DNA from: a virus
Virus record (IMG/VR): IMGVR_UViG_3300049489_000572
Location: 1 to 51,984 of that record
Strand: one strand, 5' to 3'
DNA length: 51,984 nt
The translations under genes were made by a program, and so were the position numbers. Below the pieces are notes generated by a model. It was not told the origin of the DNA and ran no database searches. It saw only the letters and a program-made list of their open reading frames with translations. Below are positions 27,582 to 50,803 of the stretch, piece by piece (the first letter of the stretch is position 1; each line of letters starts with the position of its first letter).

Positions 27582-27625
27582 AAAAAAGGGGGAGGAGGAC
27601 CAGAAATCTGTTTCCTCCTCCCCCT
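27582..27625 (-). terminator. Intrinsic terminator after the major capsid gene
   Basis: A perfect 13-bp stem (AGGGGGAGGAGGA with its complement, 27587-27625) is followed on the minus strand by six T residues. It lies 20 bp after the capsid stop and should end the packaging-capsid operon efficiently. Confidence 0.95.
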
Positions 27626-27646: not shown

Positions 27647-28726
27647 TTATAGGCTACGATCGATGACACCCATGGAGAGCATACGGCTGTCGAGGACGGC
27701 GAAGCCAACCTCTTCCCAACCGTAGATACCCTGCTGCTGCTTACGATGTAGGGTAGGATCGTCGAATACCTGGAACTCCTGACGGATAGGCATTACGAGC
27801 GAGTCGTTAACGGTCTTATCAAAGCCCCAGATCTGGGTCTCGCCAGCGGTTGTGACCTGACCGTTTGCGTCAACAACGTTCGCATTGGTGAGGGTATAAT
27901 CGTTGAACGAACCAGCGGAATCCTTGAAGATACCGTAAGACGAGGTCTGATCGTTGATGTTGAACTTACCAACGGCGCCGAGGTGCTTCAGCTCGGTGAT
28001 CTGGACGTTCCAGATGCGGCCCATACCGGCAGCGGTAAAGATTTCGCGGCGGGTAACTGGGTCGATGTCGGTGTCAGTCCACTCACGAATGTCAGCAGCG
28101 TCCTCTGGGGAAACCCATAGGTCGGTGAGCTGACGGTCGTTACGAACCATTCCTACCATCATCTTGTTGATGAGCTCCTTCGAGAGGTATCCGGCGCCTG
28201 GGGCAGCGGATGCAACCTCGAAGATTGGGGCGGAGCGAGCCTTTAGAAGGCCCTGGCCCGAGAAGTCAGTGGTACCAGCGGGTACAAGTACGCGCCAGCC
28301 CGACTCCTCCTCATACTCAGCGATAGCACGGGCTACGTTCTTTGCGGCGCGAGTAGCAATATCAACGCGACCATCACGAGCGTAGGTTAGCTTCCACTGA
28401 GCAGATGCATCGATGGAGAAGGTTGGGACGTATACGTCCTCGCCAACGCCTTCGATGAAGTTCTGGGCAGCATAGCCAAGACCAGGAAGTACCCAAACTG
28501 GTACCTCAAAGTCATCAGCTACTGGATATACAGCCTGGGCTCCTGGTCCAAGACGCTCCTCGGCAAATAGCCCACGAACTACTGAGCGGAGCTTGATCTC
28601 CTGGAGAATTGGCACTGTAAGAGCAGCCGCAAACTCCTTAAATGCGGCCTTACCCTCGGCTGTCTCATGGCAAGCAGCGGTTGCCTTAAATAGCTGCTGC
28701 ATTTCTTCGAGCTTCATGTCACTCAT
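27647..28726 (-). CDS. Major capsid protein, HK97-like fold
   Basis: This 359-residue protein has a codon-biased, high-expression look and sits between scaffold/decoration genes and a strong terminator. The N-terminus is helical. The body has the usual order: a helix near residues 120-145 (ATRAAKNVARAIAEYEEESG), a 190-220 region (ELINKMMVGMVRNDRQLTDL) that would be the P-domain spine helix, then WVSPEDAADI. The C-terminal segment QQGIYGWEEVGFAVLDSRML is typical of HK97-fold capsid proteins of large phages. AAGGAG precedes the ATG. About 360 residues is normal for the family. The assignment rests on context and these segments. Confidence 0.92.
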   Translation of the reverse strand: MSDMKLEEMQQLFKATAACHETAEGKAAFKEFAAALTVPILQEIKLRSVVRGLFAEERLGPGAQAVYPVADDFEVPVWVLPGLGYAAQNFIEGVGEDVYVPTFSIDASAQWKLTYARDGRVDIATRAAKNVARAIAEYEEESGWRVLVPAGTTDFSGQGLLKARSAPIFEVASAAPGAGYLSKELINKMMVGMVRNDRQLTDLWVSPEDAADIREWTDTDIDPVTRREIFTAAGMGRIWNVQITELKHLGAVGKFNINDQTSSYGIFKDSAGSFNDYTLTNANVVDANGQVTTAGETQIWGFDKTVNDSLVMPIRQEFQVFDDPTLHRKQQQGIYGWEEVGFAVLDSRMLSMGVIDRSL

Positions 28727-31773: not shown

Positions 31774-33633
31774 TCAGGACTTCTTTGGTACCTTCTTTTT
31801 TGCCGCCTTAATCTTCTTTAGTGCGGCTTCTAGATCATTAAGATCAGTGATGCCAAGTTTCTCCAGTAATTGGCTCATCGCTGCCTCGGCCGATACTTCT
31901 GGCTTCGATGGAACCGTCTCATCTTTCGCATCTGGAGTCTTGGCGGGTCTCCCACGAGGCCTTCCCTCAGAAGGAGTTCCCTTTGGTGTACCTTGTACGG
32001 GCTGCTTAGCACTTTGCTGGAAAGGAGATCCTATAATTCCTAGAACTCCGTCCTCAACCAGCTGCATCTCTTCCTTCATCTGAGAGATCTCAGTATCAGG
32101 ATCAAACCCAAGCTTCTTCTGGCCCGTTGCGTAAGAAATCATTCTTCTATCAACGAGACCCTGGATGATAGTCATCATCTGAATCTCATCACGAAGAGCC
32201 ATGTCGTCGAAGCGGACCTTTGGAATTCTATCAAATCCCATTGACTGCGCTATTGATCTATACTCATTATAGATCCAACGCTGTACCTGACGACGTGCGT
32301 AGTTGATTTCTTCTATTACAGACTTGATCGCCCAGTCAACAGAGGTGTCGGACCCATCTCCCAAACCGTCAATGAGGGCCCTCACGAGGCCGATACCAGC
32401 AGTTATATCACCATTAACCTGGGCATACTTTTCTGGTCCAAGAATCTGGCCGACTTCTGGGGTAGTAATCTTTTCTACGTTTAGAGTGTGGTTCCAGACA
32501 ACTTTGAAAGACTTCGATACAGTATCGAACATCTCACCGACACGCTCCAAAACTTCCTGCTTGTTAACTGGATACTGATCATTACCAACTGTTATCTTAA
32601 GGATGTAATTGGTAATACCATCAAGAGTGCTATAGTCAGCATTCCTGAGCTCATTCTTGAACTCTAGAGCCTCAAAAGCACGAGATCCTCTTGGGAGAGG
32701 ATACCTTTCATAAGGCATCTTACGATAGTCGACCTCGCCAAGCAGGGCAGGATCAAGAGGAATATCTTTGCCATCTTTGATGGCCCTCTTCCATTCCGCA
32801 GGTAGGTTTTGTAGGATCTTCTTCTGGAAATCTGACAATTCAGAAGAAGGCATCTCCATCATCTTCTTGATATCCTCTCCAGCCTTAGCCTTCAAGTAAG
32901 TGACAGCCTGGCCAAAGAGCATGCTGCCTTTAATATCAATTAGAGTTGGATTTAAAACTGTATAGTGAATAGGAATAAAGGTATTTGAATACCTATTCTT
33001 CTTCAATGAGGTCTCTTTAAGAACGCTAGCAGAAACCTTAGGAGCCTTCTGCCCCGGAACGCTTGCATTAAATCCTACCTTAGGCTCATACTTACCAAGG
33101 AGCTTGTAGGTACGAACCATACCCACGCGGAAGAAATCAAAGAATATCTTCTCTACGATGTCGTCAAAATTAGTGTCGACTACCCATGAGTCAAAGAAGT
33201 TCTTAATGGTCAAATCATCAATGTCGTTCTCAAATCCCTTTGCTGCAAAATTTGTGAGGACATTAATAGAAGCACCATATACATCTTTAACACGGTAGTA
33301 GTTGATCGATCTTTCGTAGAGTTCCTGGGGGCTGGCCTTCAATACAGAAGACTTTGCCAAATCCAAATCATCTCTCGAAAGAGGATCAACACTGATGGTT
33401 CTTAGAGAAGACATCTCTCTGTTAAGAGCGGAAACCTCTCCTACAGTATCCGACACGTAGGATGTTTCTCTATCTACAATTTCCACGCCCTCTGGGAGGG
33501 TAGGGGCATCAGGACCGCCTTTTACAGCTACCTGCATACTCAAAGAGCCGTTCTTCAATTCTGCAGAACGGATTTCTAGGTTATCGTACTTCTTCCCTAG
33601 CGTCTTGAGTGTTTTCTCTAAATCCTTATCCAT
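31774..33633 (-). CDS. Portal protein, with AT-hook-like C-terminus
   Basis: This 619-residue protein follows the large terminase gene by 3 bp and precedes the protease, the standard portal position. Portal proteins form the dodecameric DNA channel at one capsid vertex. The middle (YYRVKDVYGASINVLTNFA; ALEFKNELRNADYSTLDGIT) and the helical region near 440-530 (VIEEINYARRQVQRWIYNEY) fit the wing and stem/clip layout. Near residue 560 a basic segment RPRGRPAKTP, with an RGRP core, matches an AT-hook, a minor-groove DNA-binding motif unusual in portals. The last 60 residues are a helical Lys-rich tail. Confidence 0.9.
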   Translation of the reverse strand: MDKDLEKTLKTLGKKYDNLEIRSAELKNGSLSMQVAVKGGPDAPTLPEGVEIVDRETSYVSDTVGEVSALNREMSSLRTISVDPLSRDDLDLAKSSVLKASPQELYERSINYYRVKDVYGASINVLTNFAAKGFENDIDDLTIKNFFDSWVVDTNFDDIVEKIFFDFFRVGMVRTYKLLGKYEPKVGFNASVPGQKAPKVSASVLKETSLKKNRYSNTFIPIHYTVLNPTLIDIKGSMLFGQAVTYLKAKAGEDIKKMMEMPSSELSDFQKKILQNLPAEWKRAIKDGKDIPLDPALLGEVDYRKMPYERYPLPRGSRAFEALEFKNELRNADYSTLDGITNYILKITVGNDQYPVNKQEVLERVGEMFDTVSKSFKVVWNHTLNVEKITTPEVGQILGPEKYAQVNGDITAGIGLVRALIDGLGDGSDTSVDWAIKSVIEEINYARRQVQRWIYNEYRSIAQSMGFDRIPKVRFDDMALRDEIQMMTIIQGLVDRRMISYATGQKKLGFDPDTEISQMKEEMQLVEDGVLGIIGSPFQQSAKQPVQGTPKGTPSEGRPRGRPAKTPDAKDETVPSKPEVSAEAAMSQLLEKLGITDLNDLEAALKKIKAAKKKVPKKS

Positions 33634-33636: not shown

Positions 33637-35397
33637 TTACTTCCCAGTAGGTTTAAATGTTTTCCTAAATGCCCAACTATTCACTGGAGAATTGATAACA
33701 TCAAGTTCTCTACTCAGATTATTAGTTGATGTAGGAAGAGCTGGTAGCTTAATATTCTCTACTATCCCCAACTCAAGAAGCCCTTTTACTTCCTGGTTGT
33801 ACATGTTTAAATCGTAAGTCTTCTTGGCCGCCAAGATAAATGCGGTATAAAGGTCCTTCTTCTGCGAGGCGTGACCTCCACCAGAAGGAACGTCAAAGTG
33901 AGCTACACCTGATTTACTCTGAGTAATCTCAATAAGCATCAACTGGCGAAGCATCTTGGTGACTGTTTCGTACGCTAGCTCTTTTTCTTCTAACTCCTCT
34001 ATAGAACCAGAAAACGATTGAGGAGGCTGAGGGAATGAAATCCAATCATTCTCCATCAAGTTGACAGAAGCGTAAACAGCATCAGCGTTTGACTGGGGGC
34101 TGGGCTTAAATAGATGGAGCATTCTCCTACCATTCAAACCTACTGTCGTATCGTCATCGACATCAAGAAGACAATCATTATGGAATCTTCTCTCTTCAGC
34201 TAGAAGATCCTTAAGGGCGAGACCACCACCACCTGCACCAGCATCAAGATGGACCGCAACAACATTGTAGTCTCTGCAGATGTCTATAACTTCTTTTGCC
34301 ATTGCAGGGAACTCTTTGTTGTAGTGCTCCCACGCGCGTACTACTTGTCCCGGCTGTCCTAGCTCAATAAGACACATTGCAAATCCGTCGGAGGCGCGGG
34401 CGGGGTCGACTCCTAGTACGTACTGCTTTCCAGGCTCACCCTTTAACTTTATAGTGTGCTTACCTAGACGCCTGCAGTGCTCTATTAGGGACGCCTTAAA
34501 GATGCCTGCTGAGTCTGCTTCCCATAGAGCCTCATACTCCATGTTGAATTGGATCTTAGACATGTTGGCGCGGGCGTTCTTGATGTTATCTTCATCAAGG
34601 AAGCCCGGAGGCATAGTTCTGTAGGAGATTTCATGCACCGCGTACTTATCATCCCCAGAAAGTTCAAGCTCTTTATAGTTCTTGAGAATGTCGTACATAT
34701 GATTGAAGGTGAAGTATGCCGAAGAAGACATGATAATCTTGTTGGCGTTACCTTCTTCAAATTCTTCCCTAGTGGCCTTACCGGCCTTAACCAGTGCTTC
34801 AATCCTACGAAGCCTCTTGACATTCTCCATGGGCTCCGCTACAGTAGCACCCATGGGACGAATAACAGTGTTAAAGATCTCGGCCGGGATCTGTGCAAAC
34901 TCATCTGCCATGATGCAGTAGTAACGAGCACCACGAATCTTTGCTCCGTCTCCGAGAGGAATCGCCTCAATCATTGAGGGAGCAGCATATCCTGCCTGCT
35001 TAAAATTCAGGTAACATCTATCGCTTGCGCGTGTAGGCTTCTGAACAGTGGCTTCCTGCAGAAGAGGGGCTTTTGACCAAATCTTATCCACCTCTGCAAA
35101 AATCAATTTAGCCTGACGAAAGGAAGGAGCGAGAAGACCAATCTTCTGGCCTGGCCAGAGTAGGGCCCACAAACAAGCAAAAGTGGCCTGCAGATAGGTC
35201 TTACCACAACCACGACCAGCACTCACAATCACATAGTTCTTGAACCACATGTCCTCAAAAATCTTCTGCTGAGGAACAGCAAGTTCAACTCTTAGTAGGT
35301 CTTCAGCGGCTATAACAGGATTCTCTCGATAAAACTTTATAAGTTCTATCTCTTTCTTAAGATCAAGAGTGTCCTGGGTCGTTAGGCCGTTATTCAA
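33637..35397 (-). CDS. terL: Terminase large subunit
   Basis: This encodes 586 residues. It packages DNA into the prohead by ATP hydrolysis and cuts concatemers. Walker A is SAGRGCGKT (residues 59-67). Walker B is CIMADEF, with Asp165-Glu166. The nuclease domain has YVLGVDPARASDG (Asp331) and AVHLDAGAGGGG (Asp385). A third acidic residue probably lies in KKDLYTAF near the C-terminus. Length and motif order are normal for the family. The reading frame opens at a TTG at 35397, overlapping the small-subunit stop by 8 bp, with GGAAA upstream; no nearby ATG or GTG fits better. Confidence 0.97.
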   Translation of the reverse strand: MNNGLTTQDTLDLKKEIELIKFYRENPVIAAEDLLRVELAVPQQKIFEDMWFKNYVIVSAGRGCGKTYLQATFACLWALLWPGQKIGLLAPSFRQAKLIFAEVDKIWSKAPLLQEATVQKPTRASDRCYLNFKQAGYAAPSMIEAIPLGDGAKIRGARYYCIMADEFAQIPAEIFNTVIRPMGATVAEPMENVKRLRRIEALVKAGKATREEFEEGNANKIIMSSSAYFTFNHMYDILKNYKELELSGDDKYAVHEISYRTMPPGFLDEDNIKNARANMSKIQFNMEYEALWEADSAGIFKASLIEHCRRLGKHTIKLKGEPGKQYVLGVDPARASDGFAMCLIELGQPGQVVRAWEHYNKEFPAMAKEVIDICRDYNVVAVHLDAGAGGGGLALKDLLAEERRFHNDCLLDVDDDTTVGLNGRRMLHLFKPSPQSNADAVYASVNLMENDWISFPQPPQSFSGSIEELEEKELAYETVTKMLRQLMLIEITQSKSGVAHFDVPSGGGHASQKKDLYTAFILAAKKTYDLNMYNQEVKGLLELGIVENIKLPALPTSTNNLSRELDVINSPVNSWAFRKTFKPTGK

Positions 35398-36130
35398 TCA
35401 AATTTCCGTTCTCGTCGCGGAGAGGAGGTTGAAAGCTTTCTCTCTCCTTTTCCAAGTCGTCCATTCTCTTCTTGAAGTCCAGCTTCTTTTGTTCATCAAG
35501 ATGGGCGGCGAGGTCCACAATACTAAGTGCAGGCTTTGTCTTTAAATCAATCCTGTCTACGCGGCGGTTAGCTAGGTTCTGCTTAACCTTATCTGAGTGT
35601 TTACGAAATCTCTCGATTGTGCCGCTTGCTTCAAGGACAAGCTTGTCGCCCTTCAAAGCTGTAGTTAGGATTCTAATCTCAAGTACCCTATTTAAAGCAA
35701 GGGTGACAATGTCGTCTATGTCAGAAAAAGATAGCTCTTTGAAATCAAAGTCTTTTACGAACGCCTTGATAGTATTATAGAACACCTCCTGCTCGTTTCG
35801 GTCCTTCAGAACCTTTCGTGCAGGCAAGATGTTCTCAATAATGGATATATCGAAATCTGGACCTAAAATAGTTGAAGGATCTATGTCTTCTTCTACTTCA
35901 ACAACCTTTAGATTATCGATGGCCTTTTGCTTGGCTTCTTTAGATCTCTTATTATACTGAGCCAGATTCTTCCTTGAATTAGGATTATTTCTGGCTTTTG
36001 GATGGGAGGGCTCTTCCTTTGCGAGTTCTTCCTCGGTAGGAGGCTCTACAACCTTCCAATCTTTTTCTATGATCTCTTCTACCTTTTCTGTTCCTAGCTT
36101 TTCTTCAAGGTCCTTGATTATGGTAGACAT
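35390..36130 (-). CDS. Putative terminase small subunit
   Basis: This 246-residue, strongly charged helical protein lies immediately before the large terminase and overlaps it by 8 bp, the usual place of the small subunit that recognises the packaging site. The N-terminal region has ARNNPNSRKNLAQYNKRS, a basic segment of the kind seen in small terminases. The centre is helical (FDFKELSFSDIDDIVTLALN). I see no clear helix-turn-helix motif, so the call rests mainly on position. Confidence 0.7.
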   Translation of the reverse strand: MSTIIKDLEEKLGTEKVEEIIEKDWKVVEPPTEEELAKEEPSHPKARNNPNSRKNLAQYNKRSKEAKQKAIDNLKVVEVEEDIDPSTILGPDFDISIIENILPARKVLKDRNEQEVFYNTIKAFVKDFDFKELSFSDIDDIVTLALNRVLEIRILTTALKGDKLVLEASGTIERFRKHSDKVKQNLANRRVDRIDLKTKPALSIVDLAAHLDEQKKLDFKKRMDDLEKERESFQPPLRDENGNLIE

Positions 36131-36138: not shown

Positions 36139-36669
36139 CTATAGTGTTCTTCTATCTATAACATCTAGATCTTCTGGACTAAATACAAACTTCATAGTCT
36201 TATTTGACACATTCATGTCAACACGAACCGTATTTGATGAAATATCTATTACAGTACCTGTGTTGCCCGAGAATACACCACCATTGACCCTAACGGCGTC
36301 GCCAACATGAAACTTCTTAACCGCCTCGTTGTTGACCACTTCTAATTTCTGCAAACTGTTTACAGAAACGAGGTCGGCCGGCGTGCAGGGCCCTACATAA
36401 GTACTAATGAATGGATGCTTATTCAGCTTTAACCAAACCTTTGGATTCTTCTCGTCGTGAGCGTACTGAAGAAACATATACCCAGAATAAAGAGGAACCT
36501 TGCTCTTCTTCGCTTCTCCGCTCTTAAGAACTCGCTCTTTCGTTACGGTGGGGTAAAGGACTTGCTTTACCTCTGGAACGCTTTCTTCAATGTACTTCTT
36601 AACTGTATCAAACTTCCCAGTTTTTACAGACCAGACAAACCACTGAAGCTTCTCTGAATTACTTTCCAC
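36139..36669 (-). CDS. NusG-like transcription elongation factor
   Basis: This encodes 176 residues. NusG family proteins bind the RNA polymerase clamp and change pausing and termination. Residues 9-95 form a NusG N-terminal domain (LQWFVWSVKTGKFDTVKKYI, then YSGYMFLQYA). Residues 118-173 form a KOW domain (VGDAVRVNGGVFSGNTGTVI). I place the start at a GTG at 36669 because GGAGAG lies five bases upstream and the protein then begins like other NusGs; longer forms from 36702 or 36726 exist. It overlaps the upstream gene by 11 bp. It sits between a zinc-ribbon gene and the terminase genes in the long late operon, so an operon-specific antiterminator like RfaH or LoaP is an attractive inference. 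Confidence 0.88.
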   Translation of the reverse strand: MESNSEKLQWFVWSVKTGKFDTVKKYIEESVPEVKQVLYPTVTKERVLKSGEAKKSKVPLYSGYMFLQYAHDEKNPKVWLKLNKHPFISTYVGPCTPADLVSVNSLQKLEVVNNEAVKKFHVGDAVRVNGGVFSGNTGTVIDISSNTVRVDMNVSNKTMKFVFSPEDLDVIDRRTL

Positions 36670-37015
36670 TAATACTCTCCAAGTAAGCTTCGAGGGCTTC
36701 ATCAGTCTCGAACCTATTCTCTTCATCTACGCGGAAGTAGGCTCGGCATTGAGTGCATGTAGTACCACAGGTATTCTTGTTAACCATACAGACATTACGA
36801 CACTCAGTACAGACAGCAGCGATGTCTCTTCTAGGCTGAGTACTTTTAGGAGGCTTAATAAATGTAAAAGGAAGGTTCTTCTGATCAGCGGCTTTATTGC
36901 CCTTCTGAATCATTTCCTTATACTTCTTTGAGCCCTTGGCATGCTTATTAGGGGCTTCTCGGTTTTTACTGTCCGAGTAAGAAGTGCCTCTACCTGTCAA
37001 ATCTCTTACTACCAT
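36659..37015 (-). CDS. Zinc-ribbon protein, unknown
   Basis: This encodes 118 residues. A CxxC-x13-CxxC-type zinc ribbon sits near residues 70-90 (CTECRNVCM, then CGTTCTQC). Before it lies a basic linker (NKHAKGSKKYKEMIQKGNKA), suggesting nucleic-acid binding. It may be a small transcription or DNA-processing factor, next to the NusG-like gene. No family name can be given. Confidence 0.7.
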   Translation of the reverse strand: MVVRDLTGRGTSYSDSKNREAPNKHAKGSKKYKEMIQKGNKAADQKNLPFTFIKPPKSTQPRRDIAAVCTECRNVCMVNKNTCGTTCTQCRAYFRVDEENRFETDEALEAYLESISGK

Positions 37016-37017
37016 GA

Positions 37018-37227
37018 TTACCTGATTGGAATGTCTACGTCGGGACGAGGCTTCTTATCCTTGATAGGATCTTCACCATCATCATATCCGTCCTTAAGAG
37101 GATCCTCTCTCAGACGTCTCTTGTTCTCATCCAGAGTGTTATCATTTACATGCACTTGTGAGCGATTAGATCCGCCCATAGGCATCTTTTCTGACTTCCT
37201 CTTTTTAATTATTGGATAATCTGACAT
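37018..37227 (-). CDS. Small charged protein, unknown
   Basis: This encodes 69 residues, all charged and apparently disordered (RRLREDPLKDGYDDGEDPIK). It overlaps the dNMP kinase gene by 19 bp and precedes the zinc-ribbon gene by 2 bp. No function can be inferred. Confidence 0.6.
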   Translation of the reverse strand: MSDYPIIKKRKSEKMPMGGSNRSQVHVNDNTLDENKRRLREDPLKDGYDDGEDPIKDKKPRPDVDIPIR

Positions 37228-37898
37228 AGTTGGTTCTCCTCAAGGAATTTATCAACTTTAGAGTATAAATCCTCAATTGAAGAAGCGTCATTAACTATTG
37301 TCGCGTCCCAATCTGACCAGCTTGAAAGAGCTACTTCAGATTCGTGCCTGTGAACTACAGAATGTTCTAGATCAGGTCTTTCTATCTTAATAAGAGCGCC
37401 ATTGAAATCTTTTATCACCTGCGCTTCATTTGGGAATCTAACGTCTGTCACAACCCAGTTACCCTCTTGACTACTTAAGAACGTCTTAAGGACGTCAGTA
37501 TGATAAGTGGGAATTATGTATCGACAGAAATCTGTTCCAACAAACTGGAGAATCTCTCTGGGAGTTTCGAATGACTTCCCTGCAACGCTTAGAAAGAATT
37601 CCTTCAAAGTTTCTTTTGATGGAGATTCAGGAGAAAGATTCTTATGAGTCCTGGTCATCCATACAAGAATGGCTCCCACATGACTACTATTCAGTATCAG
37701 AGGAGCATTAAATTTAGATTTTTTCCCATTGTGATCAGATACTTCATACTCTGAAAGTTTGAAGACTGCTTTAACGAGATCTTTGAGGTTCCTTGCGAAA
37801 GAGGTCTTTCCAGTCCAGCCTCGTTTCTCAATCAGGAAGTCCGCTACGGTGTCCTTCCCAGAACCAGCATACCCACTAAGACCTATTACTGATCTCAT
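37209..37898 (-). CDS. Deoxynucleoside monophosphate kinase
   Basis: This encodes 229 residues. The P-loop is GYAGSGKD (residues 9-16). The motifs TPREILQFVGTDFCR (about 115-130) and VVTDVRFPNEAQVI are those of the phage dNMP kinase family (T4 gene 1 type), which phosphorylates deoxynucleoside monophosphates for phage DNA synthesis. Length is normal. The ATG overlaps the upstream stop by 4 bp. It lies at the start of the packaging operon, an unusual mix of nucleotide metabolism and head genes. Confidence 0.92.
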   Translation of the reverse strand: MRSVIGLSGYAGSGKDTVADFLIEKRGWTGKTSFARNLKDLVKAVFKLSEYEVSDHNGKKSKFNAPLILNSSHVGAILVWMTRTHKNLSPESPSKETLKEFFLSVAGKSFETPREILQFVGTDFCRYIIPTYHTDVLKTFLSSQEGNWVVTDVRFPNEAQVIKDFNGALIKIERPDLEHSVVHRHESEVALSSWSDWDATIVNDASSIEDLYSKVDKFLEENQLCQIIQ

Positions 37899-38158
37899 TT
37901 GAAGAACCCTTTCTTAGAAAGAGTCTTGAGTTTATCAGTAAGATTCTTCAATCGGGGATCTAAAGTGCTAACTGCACTATCAGAAGTCTCGGGTCCCGAC
38001 CTATCTACAGGGGTAATACTCAAAAAGCTTTCCTTGCATGGAAGATCTTGCGCAGCTCGGAGTGGGCAGGTTTTCCAGAACCCATCTTTGCATTGACAGA
38101 ACTCACCAGTATCTTCATCATAGAAAACAACTCTAAAAATTCTGGTGGTTTCCGTCAT
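37895..38158 (-). CDS. Small Cys-containing protein, unknown, first gene of the late operon
   Basis: This encodes 87 residues. The first part is strand-rich with spaced Cys residues (FCQCKDGFWKTCPLRAAQDL), possibly a metal site. The second half is Ser/Asp-rich and then basic (KNLTDKLKTLSKKGFFK). It is the first gene behind the promoter at 38188-38216 and overlaps the dNMP kinase by 4 bp. There is no obvious ribosome site in its short leader. Confidence 0.7.
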   Translation of the reverse strand: MTETTRIFRVVFYDEDTGEFCQCKDGFWKTCPLRAAQDLPCKESFLSITPVDRSGPETSDSAVSTLDPRLKNLTDKLKTLSKKGFFK

Positions 38159-38187
38159 ACAAATGCTACATGTAATTGAACAGCATA

Positions 38188-38216
38188 ATTATAATACAAA
38201 ATATATGTAAAGTAAA
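38188..38216 (-). promoter_or_regulatory. Promoter TTTACT-N17-TATAAT, proximal
   Basis: Minus-strand TTTACT (38216-38211), 17 bp, TATAAT (38193-38188). It carries the same TTGTATTATAAT context as the promoters at 15431 and 41583. It would start transcription about 23 bases before the gene at 38158, downstream of the folded element at 38275-38333. Confidence 0.8.
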
Positions 38217-38274
38217 GAATATGCTCAATCAAGTGCGAATTTTCGTGCAAACCTGAGAAGGCCTGCTTAAAATG

Positions 38275-38333
38275 GTCCCCAGTCCGGATCGGTGAGGGGA
38301 CTTTGGATGGGAGGTCATCGTCCCCCACCGGAT
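38275..38333 (-). ncRNA. Candidate attenuator or small RNA with two exclusive hairpins
   Basis: The stretch is GC-rich inside AT-rich flanks. On the minus strand, hairpin 1 pairs 38333-38320 with 38301-38288 (about 13 bp with two bulges, 18-base loop). Hairpin 2 pairs 38301-38296 with 38280-38275 (GTCCCC/GGGGAC, with an inner CCG/CGG) and is followed by CATTTTAA. The segment 38301-38291 belongs to both, so the two exclude each other, as in transcription attenuators. The loop of hairpin 1 reads GATGACCTCCCAT, close to the 3' end of 16S rRNA, so it could also pair with ribosome sites. A 29-codon ORF (38229-38318) starts in this loop. It lies between two promoters, ahead of the late operon. No known RNA family was recognised. 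Confidence 0.5.
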
Positions 38334-38422
38334 AGATCTTGTATTCTACAAAGAGTTTATTGTATATTCTAGTCTTTATTCTCTATAAAGACACGATACA
38401 TGTATCTTCGTTATTCCCTGTA

Positions 38423-38451
38423 TTAGTAATACTATAGATCGACTTTGTAAA
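38423..38451 (-). promoter_or_regulatory. Promoter TTTACA-N17-TACTAA, distal
   Basis: Minus-strand TTTACA (38451-38446), 17 bp, TACTAA (38428-38423). The predicted transcript reads through the folded element at 38275-38333 towards the late operon, or ends there as a small RNA. Confidence 0.7.
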
Positions 38452-38515: not shown

Positions 38516-38552
38516 ATAAAAAAGGGGACGGAGAATTAACTCCGTCCCCTTT
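38516..38552 (-). terminator. Intrinsic terminator after the 55-residue gene
   Basis: A perfect 13-bp stem (AAAGGGGACGGAG with its complement, 6-base loop, 38521-38552) ends in a T-run on the minus strand. It lies 18 bp after the stop of the small gene at 38570 and closes the operon that begins at 41611. Confidence 0.95.
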
Positions 38553-38569: not shown

Positions 38570-38737
38570 TTACTTGCCAGTTACAGCAGAGTAAGCGCCA
38601 GGGGTCTTGTTAGTTACGCCCTGATCACCAGCTGGGTTACCGTGAGGAAGGTTCTTCTTGATCTCAGGGTTGGTGTTACCAGTCTTGGTGACTGCTAGTA
38701 CTGTGCCGTTCATGAAGCGGTGATATGCAGCTGCCAT
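38570..38737 (-). CDS. 55-residue protein directly before a strong terminator, unknown
   Basis: This encodes 55 residues starting MAAAYHRFMNGTVLAVTKTG and ending in GAYSAVTGK. AAGGAG lies eight bases before the ATG, and a perfect terminator follows the TAA. No family was recognised; it is Asn/Thr/Gly-rich, with no Cys or hydrophobic segment. Strong ribosome site, frequent-codon use and a private terminator suggest high expression, as for the capsid and tube genes. It may be a small virion or nucleoid protein. It is the last gene of the operon with the aminopeptidase, protease and cold-shock genes, 3 bp from the coiled-coil gene upstream. Confidence 0.8.
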   Translation of the reverse strand: MAAAYHRFMNGTVLAVTKTGNTNPEIKKNLPHGNPAGDQGVTNKTPGAYSAVTGK

Positions 38738-38740: not shown

Positions 38741-39175
38741 TCATTCTCCTTTTCTAATTTGGGGACCGGTCCCCAAAGTTGTTGTAATATCAACATCTAT
38801 TGCCCAATTGGCTTTTTCTATACTGTTCTTAAGTAAACTCTTAAGCTTGCTATATACATCCAACTGACCAAAGACCTGGTCTCCTACCTCGGTAGGCAGA
38901 TCTTTTCTGTTTTGAAGGTTTGTCAGTAGATTAAGTTTATCTTCAACGTAATCTAGAGTTGTGTATATAAAGTTTAACGAGCTACCCGCTATAAGCGTCT
39001 CAGATCGCGTCTTAGAGATGGCGTTCTGTAGACGCTGCCTCTCCTCTAAGAGAACGTTAACCTCGTCTATAAAAGAGGAGATTGAATCTAGAGAGCAATC
39101 AGAGAGACGAGTCTCGAGAAGGGTTAACCTCTCGTTGATGTCCTTTACCCTATTATGTGCTTCAGCTAGCTTCAT
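38741..39175 (-). CDS. Coiled-coil protein, unknown
   Basis: This encodes 144 residues, helical through most of the length (VKDINERLTLLETRLSD, EVNVLLEERQRLQNAIS). It overlaps the upstream gene by 4 bp (ATGA). It ends with a short TTLGTGPQIRKGE segment. There is no motif for a function; a structural or assembly role is possible. Confidence 0.65.
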   Translation of the reverse strand: MKLAEAHNRVKDINERLTLLETRLSDCSLDSISSFIDEVNVLLEERQRLQNAISKTRSETLIAGSSLNFIYTTLDYVEDKLNLLTNLQNRKDLPTEVGDQVFGQLDVYSKLKSLLKNSIEKANWAIDVDITTTLGTGPQIRKGE

Positions 39176-39744
39176 TTGAATTCTTTTTTAAGAGCACTTA
39201 GTAGATCTGAGTAGTTAGTATTTTTTACCAAGAAACTCAGTTCTTCAATATACCTATCTGCTAAGTCCTCCCTGCCTCTGCTTTTAGCGTCTTTAAAGGC
39301 ATTGAGGATTGCAAAGAATGCAGATTCTGAATTACAGAAATATTCCACCACGGCAACCGATGCTCGTGCAGCGGAAGCCGTAAGGGATTTAGAATCATCC
39401 TTGAACGTAAAGTATTTGCCGTAGGAGTTTCTAATCTCCAATACAACATCCACCTCAGATGCGGTACCCTTCGTCTTTGCTTTTACAAAGAAGTTTACCA
39501 GCTCTAAACCGTTCAATGATGGGAACTGATTTCTAAAATGATCTTTAAGACCTGAAAAAATAGCGTCAACTATACCTACACCGGTGGCTTCAATAACTAA
39601 ACCATCGTGAAGGCATAACTGAACGCTACATTTCCCGTTCTCAAGGTCATCAAGAACGGATAGGCTATTGATCTTTACATCCAGATAGGACTTACCAAGA
39701 ATTCTCTTTATGAGTAATAGGTTGTCCTCTGGAACTGTGGTCAT
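39172..39744 (-). CDS. Unknown alpha/beta protein
   Basis: This encodes 190 residues. Residues 15-95 show alternating strands (KINSLSVLDDLENGKCSVQL, EVDVVLEIRNSYGKYFTF), and the C-terminus is helical (LADRYIEELSFLVKNTNYSD). There is no Cys-rich or catalytic motif. It is co-transcribed with the cold-shock gene upstream, with a 9-bp gap. No family was recognised. Confidence 0.65.
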   Translation of the reverse strand: MTTVPEDNLLLIKRILGKSYLDVKINSLSVLDDLENGKCSVQLCLHDGLVIEATGVGIVDAIFSGLKDHFRNQFPSLNGLELVNFFVKAKTKGTASEVDVVLEIRNSYGKYFTFKDDSKSLTASAARASVAVVEYFCNSESAFFAILNAFKDAKSRGREDLADRYIEELSFLVKNTNYSDLLSALKKEFK

Positions 39745-46640: not shown

Positions 46641-46716
46641 TGGTCCCACCCGTCTGAATCGAACAGACACCTTCGGGGCTTCAACCCAACGCGCACACCA
46701 GATACGCCAGAGTGGG
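46641..46716 (-). tRNA. tRNA-Phe (GAA)
   Basis: A full cloverleaf: acceptor CCCACTC/GGGTGGG, discriminator A and encoded CCA. The D-loop contains GG. The anticodon loop is TTGAAGC, the T-loop TTCGATT. It is the last tRNA of the array. Confidence 0.92.
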
Positions 46717-46725
46717 ATATTTAAT

Positions 46726-46801
46726 TGGGGTAGCTGACGGGACTTGAACCCGCTTTACTGGTGTCACAGACCAGCGCCTCGACCTCTTCGGCATCAGCCA
46801 C
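46726..46801 (-). tRNA. tRNA-His (GTG), without encoded G-1
   Basis: Acceptor GTGGCTG/CAGCTAC, C73 as in bacterial tRNA-His, CCA encoded, anticodon loop CTGTGAC, T-loop TTCAAGT. The base before position 1 is T, so the universal extra G at -1 that would pair with C73 is missing from the gene. Confidence 0.9.
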
Positions 46802-46835
46802 ATCTTGCCACCGGAGAAACACAGTGGACTTAAAT

Positions 46836-46911
46836 TGGAGCCCCCATCTGGACTTTAACCAGATCCTAAAGTTTACGAAACTATTGTTCTAGACAGTTAA
46901 ACTATAGGGGC
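46836..46911 (-). tRNA. tRNA-Thr (CGT), atypical
   Basis: Acceptor GCCCCTA/TGGGGGC, discriminator T, CCA encoded, anticodon loop TTCGTAA. The D-loop (AACTGTCTA) lacks GG, the T-loop is TTAAAGT with A in place of C56, and the anticodon stem has a T28-T42 mismatch. The G19-C56 elbow contact is therefore lost. It may be a degenerate or specialised tRNA. Confidence 0.75.
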
Positions 46912-46915
46912 AAAT

Positions 46916-46989
46916 TGGTACGCCGTGAAGGAGTTGGACCCTCATCTTTCGCTAATCAGGCAAACGTTCTACCATTGAACTAACGGCGC
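46916..46989 (-). tRNA. tRNA-Ile (GAT)
   Basis: Acceptor GCGCCGT/ACGGCGT with a G-U first pair, A73, CCA encoded. Anticodon loop CTGATTA. The T-loop is TCCAACT, with C at the usual pseudouridine-55 position. Confidence 0.88.
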
Positions 46990-46998
46990 ATATTAAAT

Positions 46999-47073
46999 TG
47001 GAGCCCTCACCGTGAATCGAACACGGGTTTCAACCTTACCAAGGTCGTGTAATAACCACTATACTATAAGGGC
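46999..47073 (-). tRNA. tRNA-Thr (GGT), overlapping the methyltransferase gene
   Basis: Acceptor GCCCTTA/TGAGGGC, discriminator T, CCA encoded, anticodon loop TTGGTAA, T-loop TTCGATT. Its first ten bases (47073-47064) contain the last codons and the TAG stop of the methyltransferase gene. Confidence 0.93.
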
Positions 47074-47690
47074 GTTATAATCTTTAGGGCTTCTTCAGCC
47101 AGAAACTTTGAGTAGGAAGGTGGGATGGCTTGAGACAGTCTTTCTCTAGACATCCAGTTGATCCCCATAGCAGCACTTTGCACTTCAAGGGGGATTCTCC
47201 AGACACCCACTTCTACTGTATAACGAAGATTGGGACGATTTGTAGAATTTGGGAATCGTCTTGTCCAGATATTATGTTGGCATTTTGGCTGGGCCACAGG
47301 GAAATTTGTTTCAAATATCCTATGCCTTTTTACATCCAGACCAAACATAGACCCACAAAGAGTTATTGGGTTTTCCAACGGAGCCTTAGGTACATTCTCT
47401 ATAACGTAAGGCCCTCCCCATTTTTTCAGCTTCTCTCTAATAGCTGGGATAAGATTTTCTGCGGGAGCAACGTGGTTGGCCCTATTCCTGTAGGCGGTAA
47501 AGGCCTGGCAGGGTGGACTTGCCCATACAAAGTCATAACCTTCTATGGGAAAGTCTACTGCATCACCTACAGTCATAGGGAAGGGGTATTCACTGAATGA
47601 GTACTTGTCAACACCGTGTACTTCAAATCCCGCCATAGAAAGGCCCATTGAAGCACCACCAGCCCCACAAAATAAATCTAATGCCTTCAT
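47064..47690 (-). CDS. Short DNA cytosine-C5 methyltransferase
   Basis: This encodes 208 residues. Motif I is DLFCGAGGASMG (residues 5-16), motif IV SPPCQ with the catalytic Cys61, motif VI ENV (98-100), motif VIII RHR (122-124), and motif X resembles QAIPPSYSKFLAEE. All catalytic motifs are present, yet bacterial C5 methyltransferases have over 320 residues. The target-recognition region between motifs VIII and X is only about 60 residues, so recognition is probably short. It follows the HNH gene without a gap (TAA-ATG), and its stop lies inside tRNA-Thr (GGT). It probably protects phage DNA from restriction. Confidence 0.92.
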   Translation of the reverse strand: MKALDLFCGAGGASMGLSMAGFEVHGVDKYSFSEYPFPMTVGDAVDFPIEGYDFVWASPPCQAFTAYRNRANHVAPAENLIPAIREKLKKWGGPYVIENVPKAPLENPITLCGSMFGLDVKRHRIFETNFPVAQPKCQHNIWTRRFPNSTNRPNLRYTVEVGVWRIPLEVQSAAMGINWMSRERLSQAIPPSYSKFLAEEALKIITPL

Positions 47691-48221
47691 TTACTCTTCA
47701 TCAAGCTCTGTGTTCCAGTAGAGGTAATCTCTCCAAGCATCTGGAACTGAGGTCTGATTGAGCCTGATTACGAAAGCAGGGATCCAATCCGGTCTAACTG
47801 GTCTTTTCTTAAGAACCATCTTAGCCTCTTCTGGAGTCCTGTTATTCTTCTTAGAATTACATGGAACACAGCAGGTAACGATGTTCTCCCAGTTTGTCTT
47901 ACCTCCCCTTGACCTTGGAACAACGTGGTCAAAGGTGAACTCCTTCATCTTCTTCTTTACGCCACAATACTGGCAAGAAAAATCATCCCTAGAGTAAATA
48001 GAAACACGAGAGAACTTAACATTCCTCTTCTTATTTCTACGGAACATGTTTACCAGGCGTACAACGGCAGGCATCTTAATAACTAGAAAAGCAGAACGGA
48101 TGTCATCCTCATACTCTTCTACTACTTCTGCCTTGTCAAGAAAGATCAATCTGATCGCCTCTTGCCAACTAATTACGTCTACTGGTTGGTAGCCCTGGTC
48201 TAATAGCAGGGTGCTTCTCAT
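47691..48221 (-). CDS. HNH endonuclease
   Basis: This encodes 176 residues starting MRSTLLLDQGYQPVDVISWQ. The ATG at 48221 has AAGGAG five bases upstream; a longer frame to 48290 reads into tRNA-Thr and is rejected. The C-terminal half has CQYC (Cys83, 86), FDHVVPRSRGG with His99, Asn113 and a second Cys pair near 118-121, the complete zinc-stabilised HNH core. The N-terminal region (residues 5-60) is the segment shared by a large family of free-standing bacterial and phage HNH proteins. It is not obviously a homing or terminase-linked nuclease. It lies next to the C5 methyltransferase. Confidence 0.92.
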   Translation of the reverse strand: MRSTLLLDQGYQPVDVISWQEAIRLIFLDKAEVVEEYEDDIRSAFLVIKMPAVVRLVNMFRRNKKRNVKFSRVSIYSRDDFSCQYCGVKKKMKEFTFDHVVPRSRGGKTNWENIVTCCVPCNSKKNNRTPEEAKMVLKKRPVRPDWIPAFVIRLNQTSVPDAWRDYLYWNTELDEE

Positions 48222-48259
48222 ACATGCTCCTTGTTTAGGGGACGCTTTACTTCTCGAAC

Positions 48260-48335
48260 TGGAGCCCTCTACCCGACTTGAACGGGTCACCTACGCATTA
48301 CAAGTGCGTTGCTCTACCAGATGAGCTAAGAGGGC
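48260..48335 (-). tRNA. tRNA-Thr (TGT)
   Basis: Acceptor GCCCTCT/AGAGGGC, discriminator T, CCA encoded, anticodon loop CTTGTAA, T-loop TTCAAGT, a normal GG-containing D-loop. It lies between the 73-residue gene and the HNH gene. Confidence 0.94.
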
Positions 48336-48339
48336 ATGT

Positions 48340-48353
48340 GGCCCTTTCGGGCC
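48340..48353 (-). other. Small GNRA-capped hairpin
   Basis: GGCCC-GAAA-GGGCC on the minus strand, between the stop of the 73-residue gene and tRNA-Thr (TGT). A GAAA tetraloop on a 5-bp GC stem is stable but no T-run follows, so it is more likely a processing or stability element than a terminator. Confidence 0.45.
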
Positions 48354-48358
48354 TAAAA

Positions 48359-48580
48359 CTATTCTGAAACGTTTATATAGGCAGTGTTACCTTGTCCCAT
48401 AAACTGTGCCAGCTGTGTGATGACTTCCTTATATGATGTTTCAGTTGATTCTCTGTGCACACCGGAGGAACTGGTCTTATCCGGGTTAGAGAGATAGACA
48501 AATGTACCACCATCAGGTCTCGGCACAACCTTAACAATATCTGTAACTCTGCAGGTGAACTCTTTGAAATATGCAAACAT
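48359..48580 (-). CDS. Small protein, unknown
   Basis: This encodes 73 residues starting MFAYFKEFTCRVTDIVKVV. The ATG at 48580 has AGGAG five bases upstream; a GTG two codons earlier overlaps that site and is rejected. It is beta-rich (GGTFVYLSNPDK) and has no catalytic motif. It lies within the tRNA array. Confidence 0.65.
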   Translation of the reverse strand: MFAYFKEFTCRVTDIVKVVPRPDGGTFVYLSNPDKTSSSGVHRESTETSYKEVITQLAQFMGQGNTAYINVSE

Positions 48581-48608
48581 ACTCACTCCTATCTAATCAG
48601 TCAATCAA

Positions 48609-48633
48609 CCTCTTACCCATCATAGGTAAGAGG
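48609..48633 (-). other. 9-bp hairpin after the class II tRNA
   Basis: CCTCTTACC and GGTAAGAGG form a perfect stem with a 7-base loop, three bases after the CCA of the tRNA at 48637-48728. The tail is TTGATTG, only weakly U-rich. It could end transcription partly or guide 3' processing. Confidence 0.5.
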
Positions 48634-48636
48634 AAC

Positions 48637-48728
48637 TGGTCCGCCGCCCGGGTAACGATCCCGGTCAAGAACGCTAATCTGGCGCTAAAGGGTTTATAAG
48701 ACCCTCCTGACTACCTAGTCTACGGCGG
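48637..48728 (-). tRNA. Class II tRNA with UAU anticodon and reduced D-arm
   Basis: It is 92 bases long: acceptor CCGCCGT/GCGGCGG, A73, CCA encoded, T-stem CCGGG/CCCGG. The anticodon stem AGGGT/ACCCT holds loop CTTATAA, giving anticodon UAU (Ile codon AUA). A 24-base variable region folds into its own stem (AGCGC/GCGTT), a feature of Leu, Ser and Tyr tRNAs, never of Ile. The D-arm is GACT-AGGT-AGTC with a 4-base loop, and the T-loop is ATCGTTA, with the usual T54-A58 contact reversed. It may be a tRNA of non-standard identity or a decayed copy. Confidence 0.6.
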
Positions 48729-48734
48729 GTAAAT

Positions 48735-48811
48735 TGGAGTACGTGATAGGAGTTGAACCTACATTATATCAGGGTTGCAATCTGATGCCTAACCATTCGA
48801 GCCACACGTAC
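48735..48811 (-). tRNA. tRNA-Cys (GCA)
   Basis: Acceptor GTACGTG/CACGTAC, U73 as usual for Cys, CCA encoded, anticodon loop TTGCAAC, T-loop TTCAACT. An A31-C39 mismatch closes the anticodon loop, a feature shared with two Leu-anticodon tRNAs of this array. Confidence 0.9.
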
Positions 48812-48817
48812 GTAATC

Positions 48818-49357
48818 TTAAAAACCTACTCTGTCAAGGAGCTCATTTAGAGCAGAGAAGTCAGAGCTGCATTCCAAAATCTCAACTCCTCGCTTATTTA
48901 AGAAGACTTTTAACTCACTATCAACTTCTTTAGACTGCTCTTCAGTGTGCCATCTTCCGGCTTGGACAAAAGGCTTTGATCTATTTAACCAAACATTAAT
49001 ATGGCGGTGGCCCTCAACCTTGGCCTGCTGATAGTAGCCTTGAACACAAGACTCTACGCCATTTCTAACAAGTGGAGGTGAAACCCTCTCAGCATAGTAG
49101 GCACTTAACCATACGGGACAATCAGTTACGATAGCATCTACTTTCCCAAGTACGAGAGACTCTTTTCTGATCTGCTTACCAAGGAAGTAGAACTGGTCAT
49201 ACACATTAATACTTCTACCCTCCCAGACCCAGTCTTTGATATACTCTCTTACTAATTCAGAGTTTATACCACGTCTCTTTAGTTCGGCGAAGACATATGC
49301 AGAACTTGTTGACTTACCCGCACCAGGACCAGCAAAAAACGAAATCACCGCAGTCAT
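48818..49357 (-). CDS. P-loop kinase / ATPase, probable nucleotide or nicotinamide-type kinase
   Basis: This encodes 179 residues. Walker A is GPGAGKST (residues 10-17) right at the N-terminus, followed by a lid-like basic helix. Walker-B-like strand VDAIVTDCPVWLSAYY contains Asp-Cys-Pro. The HINVWLNRSKPF-x-QAGRWHTEEQS segment carries the Arg residues expected for phosphate binding. This architecture is that of small AAA-type kinases common in large phages, including NadR-like ones. The substrate is unknown. Its ATG overlaps the upstream ORF by 4 bp. Confidence 0.8.
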   Translation of the reverse strand: MTAVISFFAGPGAGKSTSSAYVFAELKRRGINSELVREYIKDWVWEGRSINVYDQFYFLGKQIRKESLVLGKVDAIVTDCPVWLSAYYAERVSPPLVRNGVESCVQGYYQQAKVEGHRHINVWLNRSKPFVQAGRWHTEEQSKEVDSELKVFLNKRGVEILECSSDFSALNELLDRVGF

Positions 49358-49560
49358 TCTAACTCCTCTTTAAAACTTGCGGAAGGAGTGGGACTCGAAC
49401 CCACAAAGCCTTTCGGCCTACACGCTTTCCAAGCGGGCTCCTCATCCAGCCGGATCCCTTCCTTACGTAAAGGACAACTATAACAACGAGGTCCTTTATA
49501 ACTCTCCGGTTTGCCACAATAACATTCCGGTCTTACATGATCTACTACTTTTAGTTTCAT
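49354..49560 (-). CDS. Putative 68-residue ORF running through tRNA-Ser (GGA)
   Basis: The first 34 residues (VRPECYCGKPESYKGPRCYS) carry a CxC and a CxxC and look like a metal-binding protein. The frame then continues through the whole of the tRNA-Ser gene (49380-49462) and ends in an ATGA overlap with the kinase gene. No convincing ribosome site lies in front of the ATG, which follows a tRNA by 5 bp. Either a genuine gene was interrupted by tRNA insertion or the frame is open by chance. Confidence 0.4.
   Translation of the reverse strand: MKLKVVDHVRPECYCGKPESYKGPRCYSCPLRKEGIRLDEEPAWKACRPKGFVGSSPTPSASFKEELE
49380..49462 (-). tRNA. tRNA-Ser (GGA)
   Basis: Acceptor GGAAGGG/TCCTTCC, G73, anticodon loop centred on TTGGAAA, a long variable arm (GTGTAGGCCGAAAGGCTTT) and T-loop TTCGAGT. 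CCA is not encoded (CAA follows the discriminator), unlike most of the array, so the host would add it. Confidence 0.93.
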
Positions 49561-49564
49561 AAAC

Positions 49565-49655
49565 TGGCGGAAGCAACGAGATTCGAACTCGTGGACCCCT
49601 TACGGGGTCGGCGGTTTAGCAAACCACTGGATTAAGCCATCTCTCCCATACTTCC
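49565..49655 (-). tRNA. tRNA-Ser (GCT)
   Basis: Acceptor GGAAGTA/TGCTTCC, G73, CCA encoded, anticodon loop TTGCTAA, a long variable arm with CGACCCC/GGGGTC, T-loop TTCGAAT. It begins 1 bp after the stop of the 61-residue gene. Confidence 0.94.
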
Positions 49656-49656
49656 A

Positions 49657-49842
49657 TTATCTGATTCGAAAAAGACTCAAGAGCCAATCATAAGCGCTTA
49701 ATTGCTTTTTCTTTAGCTCTTCTTGTTCGTCCTTGTCATAACAATCGTAGCAGACCACTCTGCGTTCAGCAGAATAAGGTTTAGTGCGAATCACATCCCC
49801 AACATCTTTCATCTTTTGGCATCGATCACACTTGAAGTCCAC
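49657..49842 (-). CDS. Small zinc-ribbon protein
   Basis: This encodes 61 residues. Two Cys pairs, CDRC (residues 5-8) and CYDC (31-34), form a rubredoxin-like zinc ribbon. The C-terminal half is helical (EELKKKQLSAYDWLLSLF). AGGAG precedes the ATG, and the stop is next to the following tRNA. It is compatible with nucleic-acid binding; no name can be given. Confidence 0.7.
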   Translation of the reverse strand: MDFKCDRCQKMKDVGDVIRTKPYSAERRVVCYDCYDKDEQEELKKKQLSAYDWLLSLFRIR

Positions 49843-49857
49843 TACAATCTCCTAAAC

Positions 49858-49940
49858 TGGCGGAAGGTATAGGAATCGAACCCGACCCGTAGGCACCCGG
49901 TGTTCAAGACCGGTAGCATCCCTTGACGCTCTTACCTTCC
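49858..49940 (-). tRNA. tRNA-Ser (TGA)
   Basis: Acceptor GGAAGGT/ACCTTCC, G73, CCA encoded, anticodon stem CCGGT/ACCGG with loop CTTGAAC, a medium variable arm and T-loop TTCGATT. Two pairs of the T-stem are mismatched as drawn, so the variable-arm/T-stem border is uncertain. Confidence 0.88.
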
Positions 49941-49954
49941 AATAATAATACAAA

Positions 49955-50030
49955 TGGTGACCTTATGGAGAGTCGAACTCCAATTTCCTGCGTGAGAGGC
50001 AGACGTCCTAAGCCATTGGACGATAAGGCC
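49955..50030 (-). tRNA. tRNA-Glu (CTC)
   Basis: Acceptor GGCCTTA/TAAGGTC, A73, CCA encoded, anticodon loop CTCTCAC, T-loop TTCGACT. It reads GAG; a TTC partner for GAA lies at 50200. Confidence 0.92.
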
Positions 50031-50036
50031 TTGAAA

Positions 50037-50113
50037 TGGTACATCCGGAAGGACTCGAACCCTCAACCCCCGAGGTAGAAGCTCGGTGCTCTATCCAGTT
50101 GAGCTACGGATGC
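50037..50113 (-). tRNA. tRNA-Arg (TCT)
   Basis: Acceptor GCATCCG/CGGATGT with a G-U first pair, A73, CCA encoded, anticodon loop CTTCTAC, T-loop TTCGAGT. It reads AGA and AGG, codons common in this phage. Confidence 0.94.
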
Positions 50114-50119
50114 ATAAAT

Positions 50120-50194
50120 TGGCGGTCCTGACGGGAATCGAACCCGCCTCAGCCGATAGACAGTCGGCCAGCCTCACCAGATGCTTACAGAACC
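50120..50194 (-). tRNA. tRNA-Asp (GTC)
   Basis: Acceptor GGTTCTG/CAGGACC, G73 as usual for Asp, CCA encoded, anticodon loop CTGTCTA, T-loop TTCGATT. Confidence 0.94.
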
Positions 50195-50199
50195 ATAAT

Positions 50200-50274
50200 T
50201 GGTAGCCTATGAGAGAATCGAACTCTCGTTGTCGGATTGAAAGTCCGATCTCTTAACCACTAGAGGAATAGGCC
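50200..50274 (-). tRNA. tRNA-Glu (TTC)
   Basis: Acceptor GGCCTAT/ATAGGCT with a G-U first pair, A73, CCA encoded, anticodon loop CTTTCAA, T-loop TTCGATT. Confidence 0.94.
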
Positions 50275-50284
50275 ATAAAAGATT

Positions 50285-50352
50285 TGCCGCGGTATTCATC
50301 CGCTTTCCCTCTCACTGAGGGCGAACGATTTGTGGAATTGTCGTTCCTGGCA
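50285..50352 (-). ncRNA. Cloverleaf-shaped element that is not a standard tRNA
   Basis: TGCC (50285-50288) and GGCA (50349-50352) close a junction from which three perfect hairpins project: 50289-50303 (4 bp, 7-base loop), 50307-50321 (5 bp, 5-base loop) and 50323-50346 (6 bp, 12-base loop). Together they form a four-way junction like a tRNA, but there is no TTC-type T-loop, no CCA end and no U33 in the central loop. The fold is visible on both strands; its place suggests co-transcription with the array on the minus strand. It is either a remnant of a tRNA or a structured RNA of unknown role. Confidence 0.45.
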
Positions 50353-50353
50353 T

Positions 50354-50427
50354 TGGTAGCGGGACTGGGATTCGCACCCAGGTCTAGAGCTTATGAGACT
50401 CTCGAGTTACTTCTTCTCTATCCCGCA
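50354..50427 (-). tRNA. tRNA-Met (CAT), first copy, initiator-like acceptor
   Basis: With U8 in register the acceptor is T1-GCGGGA and TCCCGC-T72, leaving positions 1 and 72 unpaired as in initiator tRNA; A73 and CCA follow. Anticodon loop CTCATAA. The three G-C pairs of initiator anticodon stems are absent (AGAGT/GCTCT), and the D-loop lacks GG. T-loop TGCGAAT. Elongator, initiator and Ile(AUA) identities cannot be separated by eye. Confidence 0.8.
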
Positions 50428-50430
50428 AAT

Positions 50431-50507: not shown

Positions 50508-50510
50508 ATA

Positions 50511-50705: not shown

Positions 50706-50721
50706 ATGCTTCCTATAAAAC

Positions 50722-50796: not shown

Positions 50797-50803
50797 ATAA
50801 AAT

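Follow-up and report, generated by a model that had tools for sequence, protein, structure and literature searches.

A terminase-linked NusG-family protein in a phage packaging-head operon, with a leader hairpin conserved in one subclade

A branch of the NusG family is encoded directly beside the terminase genes in a group of phages. The window analysed here is a 51,984-nt fragment of one such phage genome (IMGVR_UViG_3300049489_000572, positions 1 to 51,984). We propose that its NusG protein is a general processivity or antitermination factor acting on late transcription, and that it would not need the hairpin found in the operon leader; we put the probability of this reading at roughly 0.55. 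The hairpin is part of a promoter cassette that is local to the subclade containing the window.

The window protein belongs to a phage-specific branch of the NusG family

The 176-residue NusG domain protein described in the initial annotation is confirmed. It is read from a GTG start at 36669 and scores above the cut-off of the Pfam NusG model (PF02357, covering the N-terminal NGN domain; 32.6 bits against 22.2, E 1.2e-7). The C-terminal KOW domain is matched by models at 5.6e-6 to 0.005, slightly under the Pfam cut-offs, and by a four-row profile search against NusG chains in the PDB at about 9e-12; a direct PDB sequence search returns matches to NusG and SPT5. The protein corresponds to phrog_6386, ‘transcription antiterminator’, a family matched by 13 of the 13 NusG members tested. 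Structure comparison, named in the initial annotation as a way to overturn the family placement, upholds it: the top PDB matches (Foldseek) of an AlphaFold2 model (pLDDT 79) are only NusG, RfaH and Spt5, and the NGN domain alone aligns with a TM of 0.6-0.7, normalised by target. Two named phage NusG/RfaH entries from UniProt are among the best viral fold matches.

None of the subfamily cut-offs is reached. The scores are 39.8 against 135.7 bits for housekeeping NusG (TIGR00922), 33.7 against 125 for LoaP (NCBIfam NF033641), 23.6 against 144.5 for RfaH (TIGR01955) and 36.4 against 100 for UpxY (NF033644), and the protein is therefore assigned to a separate phage branch of the superfamily. Judged by its sequence and predicted fold, it is a true NusG-family member. 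An alignment of 13 phage NusGs contains an invariant W, a P-Y-G-Y core and the KOW glycines. The core residues predicted to contact the polymerase clamp are likewise conserved, and this motif conservation is partly circular because P[LF]Y[ESA]GY[LMI]F served as the search pattern for NusG homologues. Gene order lay outside the query.

The NusG gene lies within a one-way packaging-head operon

On the minus strand the gene order is p87, DNMK, p69, zinc ribbon, NusG, terS, terL and portal, continuing to the major head protein. The main features are as follows.

37895-38158, minus strand: p87, first gene of the operon, function not assigned
37209-37898, minus strand: deoxynucleoside monophosphate kinase (DNMK)
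37018-37227, minus strand: p69, function not assigned
36659-37015, minus strand: zinc-ribbon protein
36139-36669, minus strand: NusG-family elongation factor, 176 aa, GTG start at 36669
35390-36130, minus strand: putative small terminase (terS), assigned by position and without a family match
33637-35397, minus strand: terminase large subunit (terL)
31774-33633, minus strand: portal protein
27647-28726, minus strand: major head protein
27592-27620, minus strand: T1, strong intrinsic terminator behind the major head gene, U-tract T6
12845-12873, minus strand: T2, strong hairpin within the structural gene block, U-tract poor

The packaging-capsid operon proposed earlier is borne out by the terL, portal and major head protein genes downstream of NusG, the last about 9 kb away. 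The ‘six short genes’ said to precede NusG are in fact four (p87, DNMK, p69 and the zinc ribbon), which puts NusG fifth in line behind the leader. The operon genes, which include genes for nucleotide metabolism, are tightly spaced or overlapping, and the start of NusG overlaps the zinc-ribbon gene by 11 nt. The structural gene block spans ~38 kb in a single direction, contains the two strong hairpins T1 and T2, and ends with a tape measure gene that runs off the contig. Both hairpins annotated as terminators at 27582 and 12840 exist, although the U-tract of T2 is poor. T1 is followed immediately by its own consensus promoter at 27555-27527, an arrangement as compatible with segmented transcription as it is with read-through.

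The tape measure frame (3-10706, minus strand; PF10145, phrog_4211) encodes at least 3,560 aa and is open at the contig end, a size that suggests a very long tail. Stop-codon reassignment was considered for the 1-10.7 kb region and rejected, as the region is one long minus-strand tape-measure frame. At the other end of the window, 24 predicted tRNA genes are clustered at 46641-51968 (minus strand), among them an HNH endonuclease (47691-48290) and a DNA methylase-like fragment (47064-47690).

NusG is linked to the terminase genes throughout the group

In all 43 contigs recovered via NusG homology, NusG adjoins terS and terL on their upstream side; its place within the packaging-capsid operon is thus strictly kept. 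The four-sequence NusG scan yielded 44 loci in at least 42 contigs, and one further contig from a metagenome-assembled genome (MAG) agrees. The zinc-ribbon gene lies directly upstream of NusG wherever a contig reaches both. An Spt4-like partner was considered for this neighbour and rejected, since neither profile nor fold comparison supports it.

The NusG tree has three branches: one containing the window and contigs L172, L002 and L173, a second formed by L175-L177, and a large branch that includes jumbo phages. In the jumbo branch a NUMOD3-like gene mostly sits between NusG and terS. Relatives lacking NusG carry an unrelated NUMOD3-motif protein in the slot between the zinc ribbon and terS, where this is readable. 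The idea that this protein replaces NusG was dropped because most jumbo-clade phages have both.

A first terminase search gave 31 contigs, with NusG only in L002, and a second search added L153 and L156, both NusG carriers. The terminase tree covers 34 phages, namely the four NusG carriers then known, 29 phages without NusG and one distant row, and it joins the window, L002, L153 and L156 in one clade with support 95/85. The 29 related phages show no NusG at the slot, indicating that NusG is not essential to late operons of this kind.

The terL frame of L156 (6393-9557) contains a large insertion resembling an intein, and similarly long terL frames occur in L195, L209 and L241. L241 is a phage contig with the NusG-terS-terL order that was assigned, probably through a binning error, to the MAG of an archaeon (Candidatus Altiarchaeales). 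An archaeal host call was rejected because the sole genome match, which comes from an archaeal MAG, is itself phage-like.

A leader cassette is conserved in the subclade of the window

These elements make up the operon head.

38521-38552, minus strand: T0, intrinsic terminator ending the upstream operon, 13 bp stem and U-run, with counterparts in L002 and L173
38423-38451, minus strand: P1, TTTACA-N17-TACTAA, start of the leader transcript, with a weak -10; the L002 and L173 counterparts have TTGACA/TTGACT
38290-38330, minus strand: leader hairpin 1, -22.1 kcal/mol, kept in L002 and L173 with compensatory changes
38315-38326, minus strand: invariant arm of hairpin 1, GGGGGACGAURA, sole exact copy in the window
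38275-38301, minus strand: alternative hairpin 2, -13.4 kcal/mol, window only
38188-38216, minus strand: P2, TTTACT-N17-TATAAT, strong (10/12), downstream of the hairpin

The order terminator, P1, hairpin, P2, p87 recurs in L002 and L173, giving three phages with the window. Hairpin 1 includes GGGGGACGAU, and its GGGGGACGAURA arm is identical in all three, with an exact common 10-mer; only 8 of 2000 shuffled leader sets share even a 9-mer. The NusG proteins of L002 and L173 are 51-55% identical to that of the window, a distance at which unconstrained DNA should have drifted, and the arm therefore appears to be constrained. The folds suggest compensatory changes in the lower stem (UUCG/CGAA versus UCCG/CGGA; L173, L002) and in the upper stem (GAUA/UAUC versus GAUG/CAUC), read by eye from three sequences only. 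The window stem has an extra UG/CA pair step.

Of the two promoters initially annotated, P2 is strong; P1 has a weak -10 element and is missing from the promoter scan list. Both are sigma-70-like, and the P2 box type TTGTcTTATtAT is that of the relatives' operon promoters. The two hairpins both fold in the window, where they are mutually exclusive because the GUCCCC arm is common to both, and hairpin 2 is followed by UUUU. Hairpin 2 was not found in the L002 or L173 leaders, and an attenuator switch is therefore not supported. The local 91-nt fold is no better than shuffles (z -0.65), while the whole 262-nt leader is more structured than shuffles (z -3.9, 0/200). Rfam gives no leader match above threshold, and a UAG-repeat (TRAP-like) signal was rejected (105 versus a dinucleotide expectation of 101).

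Pattern searches place the cassette within a narrow group. The P2 core pattern has one match in 2.9 million viral contigs, L002. The hairpin pattern has five: the L002 and L173 contigs, which are relatives, and three that were set aside as chance matches on contigs without any gene of this operon. A first leader pattern search returned 117 stretches, among which the L002 contig alone could be identified as a relative. Conservation of the leader thus holds in the two closest NusG relatives with a readable leader but does not extend to other NusG phages in the upstream sequence available. From these sequence comparisons, the cassette is real but local to the window/L002/L173 subclade. Two genes lying upstream on the same strand are also kept in L002 and L173: one for a 55-aa protein just before T0 (38570-38737) and one for a LeuA dimerisation-like domain protein (39172-39744).

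The hairpin is not a general companion of NusG

In NusG contigs outside the window, L002 and L173, the hairpin motif is absent upstream of NusG as far as the sequence reaches, many of these contigs being too short to reach the operon head. The operon promoter outside the subclade is P2-like and lacks such a hairpin. Far upstream of NusG, jumbo-branch phages have a gap of about 90-230 nt, which in L156 precedes thyA, and the P2-type box TTGTCTTAT recurs at these gaps. Within the subclade, P2 transcripts start downstream of the hairpin and bypass it. L175 (4007-4553) and L176 (4006-4548) have a conserved non-coding leader of ~545 nt at the same operon position, with other sequence.

The pairing of leader and NusG, as first put forward, does not survive these comparisons: the motif is absent outside the subclade in the available upstream sequence, P2 bypasses the hairpin and the two-hairpin switch is found in the window only. 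A general leader-NusG pair was accordingly rejected. The hairpin and NusG are nested within a single lineage; a pair would fit this pattern, but it amounts to one evolutionary event.

Two readings of the hairpin can be weighed against this background, neither of them exclusive of the processivity role proposed for NusG. In the first, hairpin 1 would be independent of NusG: host factors would read it, and it would stabilise P1 transcripts at the 5' end, direct their processing or attenuate them. The small number of NusG phages with the hairpin, the alternative hairpin followed by UUUU in the window and the strong structure of the whole leader are all consistent with this. The switch is not conserved, however, and one arm keeps its primary sequence beyond the needs of pairing, which suggests a specific binder; we regard this reading as less likely than not.

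The second reading is a pair of the LoaP or RfaH type, in which NusG would be loaded specifically at the P1-made leader hairpin (GGGGGACGAURA) and carry RNA polymerase through T1 and T2. It draws on the retention of the hairpin with compensatory changes in three phages that all carry NusG, and on phages without NusG, in which no leader separates the adjoining p144-like and p87-like genes, where readable. LoaP itself requires a leader hairpin (PMC12691694). Most NusG phages nevertheless lack the hairpin in the available sequence, P2 begins downstream of it, the window, L002 and L173 leaders contain no UNCG hairpin, and ops-like sites show no excess. Co-occurrence of hairpin and NusG is weak evidence here, as their ancestry may be common, and we consider such loading unlikely.

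A proposed role in late transcription

NusG lowers pausing by RNA polymerase, to whose clamp it binds. Some of its paralogues, RfaH and LoaP among them, act on long operons (PMC7819879, PMC12691694). What is understood of the family, together with a 38 kb one-way operon holding two strong internal hairpins, points to a processivity or antitermination role for the phage protein. It would be made together with the packaging-head operon, whose late timing is assumed from gene content, and its NGN domain would dock on the clamp of the RNA polymerase reading the late genes, most likely the host enzyme. Pausing and termination would be reduced over the ~38-kb structural block with its internal terminators. 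The subclade of the window would have an added cassette (terminator, weak P1, conserved hairpin, strong P2) at the operon head, in which P1 transcripts would begin with a structured leader owing to the hairpin, which may be a loading or control site. Against this role weigh the nucleotide-metabolism genes of the operon, the promoter immediately behind T1 and the 29 related phages without NusG.

The KOW and NGN domains could instead serve Rho or ribosome contacts. A related alternative is anti-silencing, in which the protein would compete with host NusG and so protect phage transcripts across the genome from Rho-dependent termination. Some NusG paralogues, RfaH for one, oppose Rho (PMC5449661), and the KOW domain is retained in the phage protein; the strict terminase-adjacent position points to late genes and not to early takeover, which leaves anti-silencing improbable.

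The polymerase partner

The initial annotation had the phage using its own NusG ‘instead of a new sigma factor or polymerase’, a contrast that the jumbo relatives contradict for the group. Two of them (295,848 and 297,725 bp) have genes for a sigma factor as well as for two RNA polymerases. The sigma factor contains regions 2 and 4 (L225 5962-6906; L227 6421-7338). One polymerase is a single chain of 1,057-1,120 aa with both barrels (beta-like and beta'-like domains) in one frame and the motif NLDFDGD (L224 8725-11895; L226 8930-12289). In four relatives the tape measure protein has a long N-terminal polymerase-like extension with DFDGD or DLDGD (DxDGD), at L237 760-14712, L238 2787-15329, L228 7072-19998 and L239+L240; the fused proteins of the jumbo relatives are 4,181-4,651 aa long.

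The window tape measure is homologous to the jumbo ones and lacks the N-terminal polymerase extension. Its DLDGD was rejected as a sign of a polymerase, lying beyond the conserved tape-measure region with no N-terminal module, and no RNA polymerase was seen within the 52-kb window. The late genes of Thermus phage P23-45 are transcribed by host RNA polymerase (PMC10770324). This precedent and the missing extension together make host RNA polymerase the likely target of the window NusG. That NusG works with phage-encoded polymerases and not with the host enzyme, as the single-chain and tape-fused polymerases and the sigma factor of the jumbo relatives might suggest, is quite unlikely given the window tape measure without a polymerase module, the absence of any polymerase seen in 52 kb, the sigma-70-like promoters and the host-read late genes of P23-45 with its similar polymerases (PMC10770324).

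Relation to known systems

The phage protein resembles several NusG paralogues without matching any of them. LoaP of Bacillus velezensis is likewise a NusG paralogue that serves long operons with internal terminators and has a leader hairpin; the phage protein, in contrast, is far below the LoaP cut-off and is encoded inside its own operon, and its hairpin is not general. A LoaP-type leader was rejected, as no UNCG-loop hairpin is found in the window, L002 or L173 leaders. RfaH also serves long operons and is a fold match to the window model, but the phage protein is below its cut-off and ops-like sites are at chance level: allowing up to 2 mismatches there are 7, where 6.2 would be expected, and the leader has none. 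UpxY of Bacteroides is encoded with the operon it serves, as here, but the phage NusG reaches only 36.4 of the 100-bit cut-off. The tape-fused and separate RNA polymerases of the jumbo relatives are of the same kind as those of P23-45, from which the window differs in having no polymerase part in its tape measure; the P23-45 paper makes no mention of NusG (PMC10770324).

Phage NusG proteins are already named in databases: PHROG 6386 and the UniProt phage NusG/RfaH entries are the same protein family as the window NusG, as database names only. In the literature searched, with partial coverage, we found neither the terminase linkage across a phage group nor the subclade hairpin, and no papers joining NusG with terminase and portal.

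The most far-reaching interpretation is that a whole lineage of large phages drives late transcription with a terminase-linked NusG of its own, that the subclade hairpin (GGGGGACGAURA) loads NusG as RNA or DNA, and that jumbo members add a phage sigma factor and two RNA polymerases to give a nearly complete viral elongation system; taken as a whole, we think it rather improbable.

To our knowledge, no transcription regulators other than those of the NusG family are universally conserved, and the more familiar phage strategy is to borrow the NusG of the host (lambda N, Q). The findings raise a testable question, namely whether host or phage RNA polymerase is served and whether a leader signal is needed. 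A NusG branch fixed beside the terminase genes suggests that the late operons of some large phages own an elongation factor.
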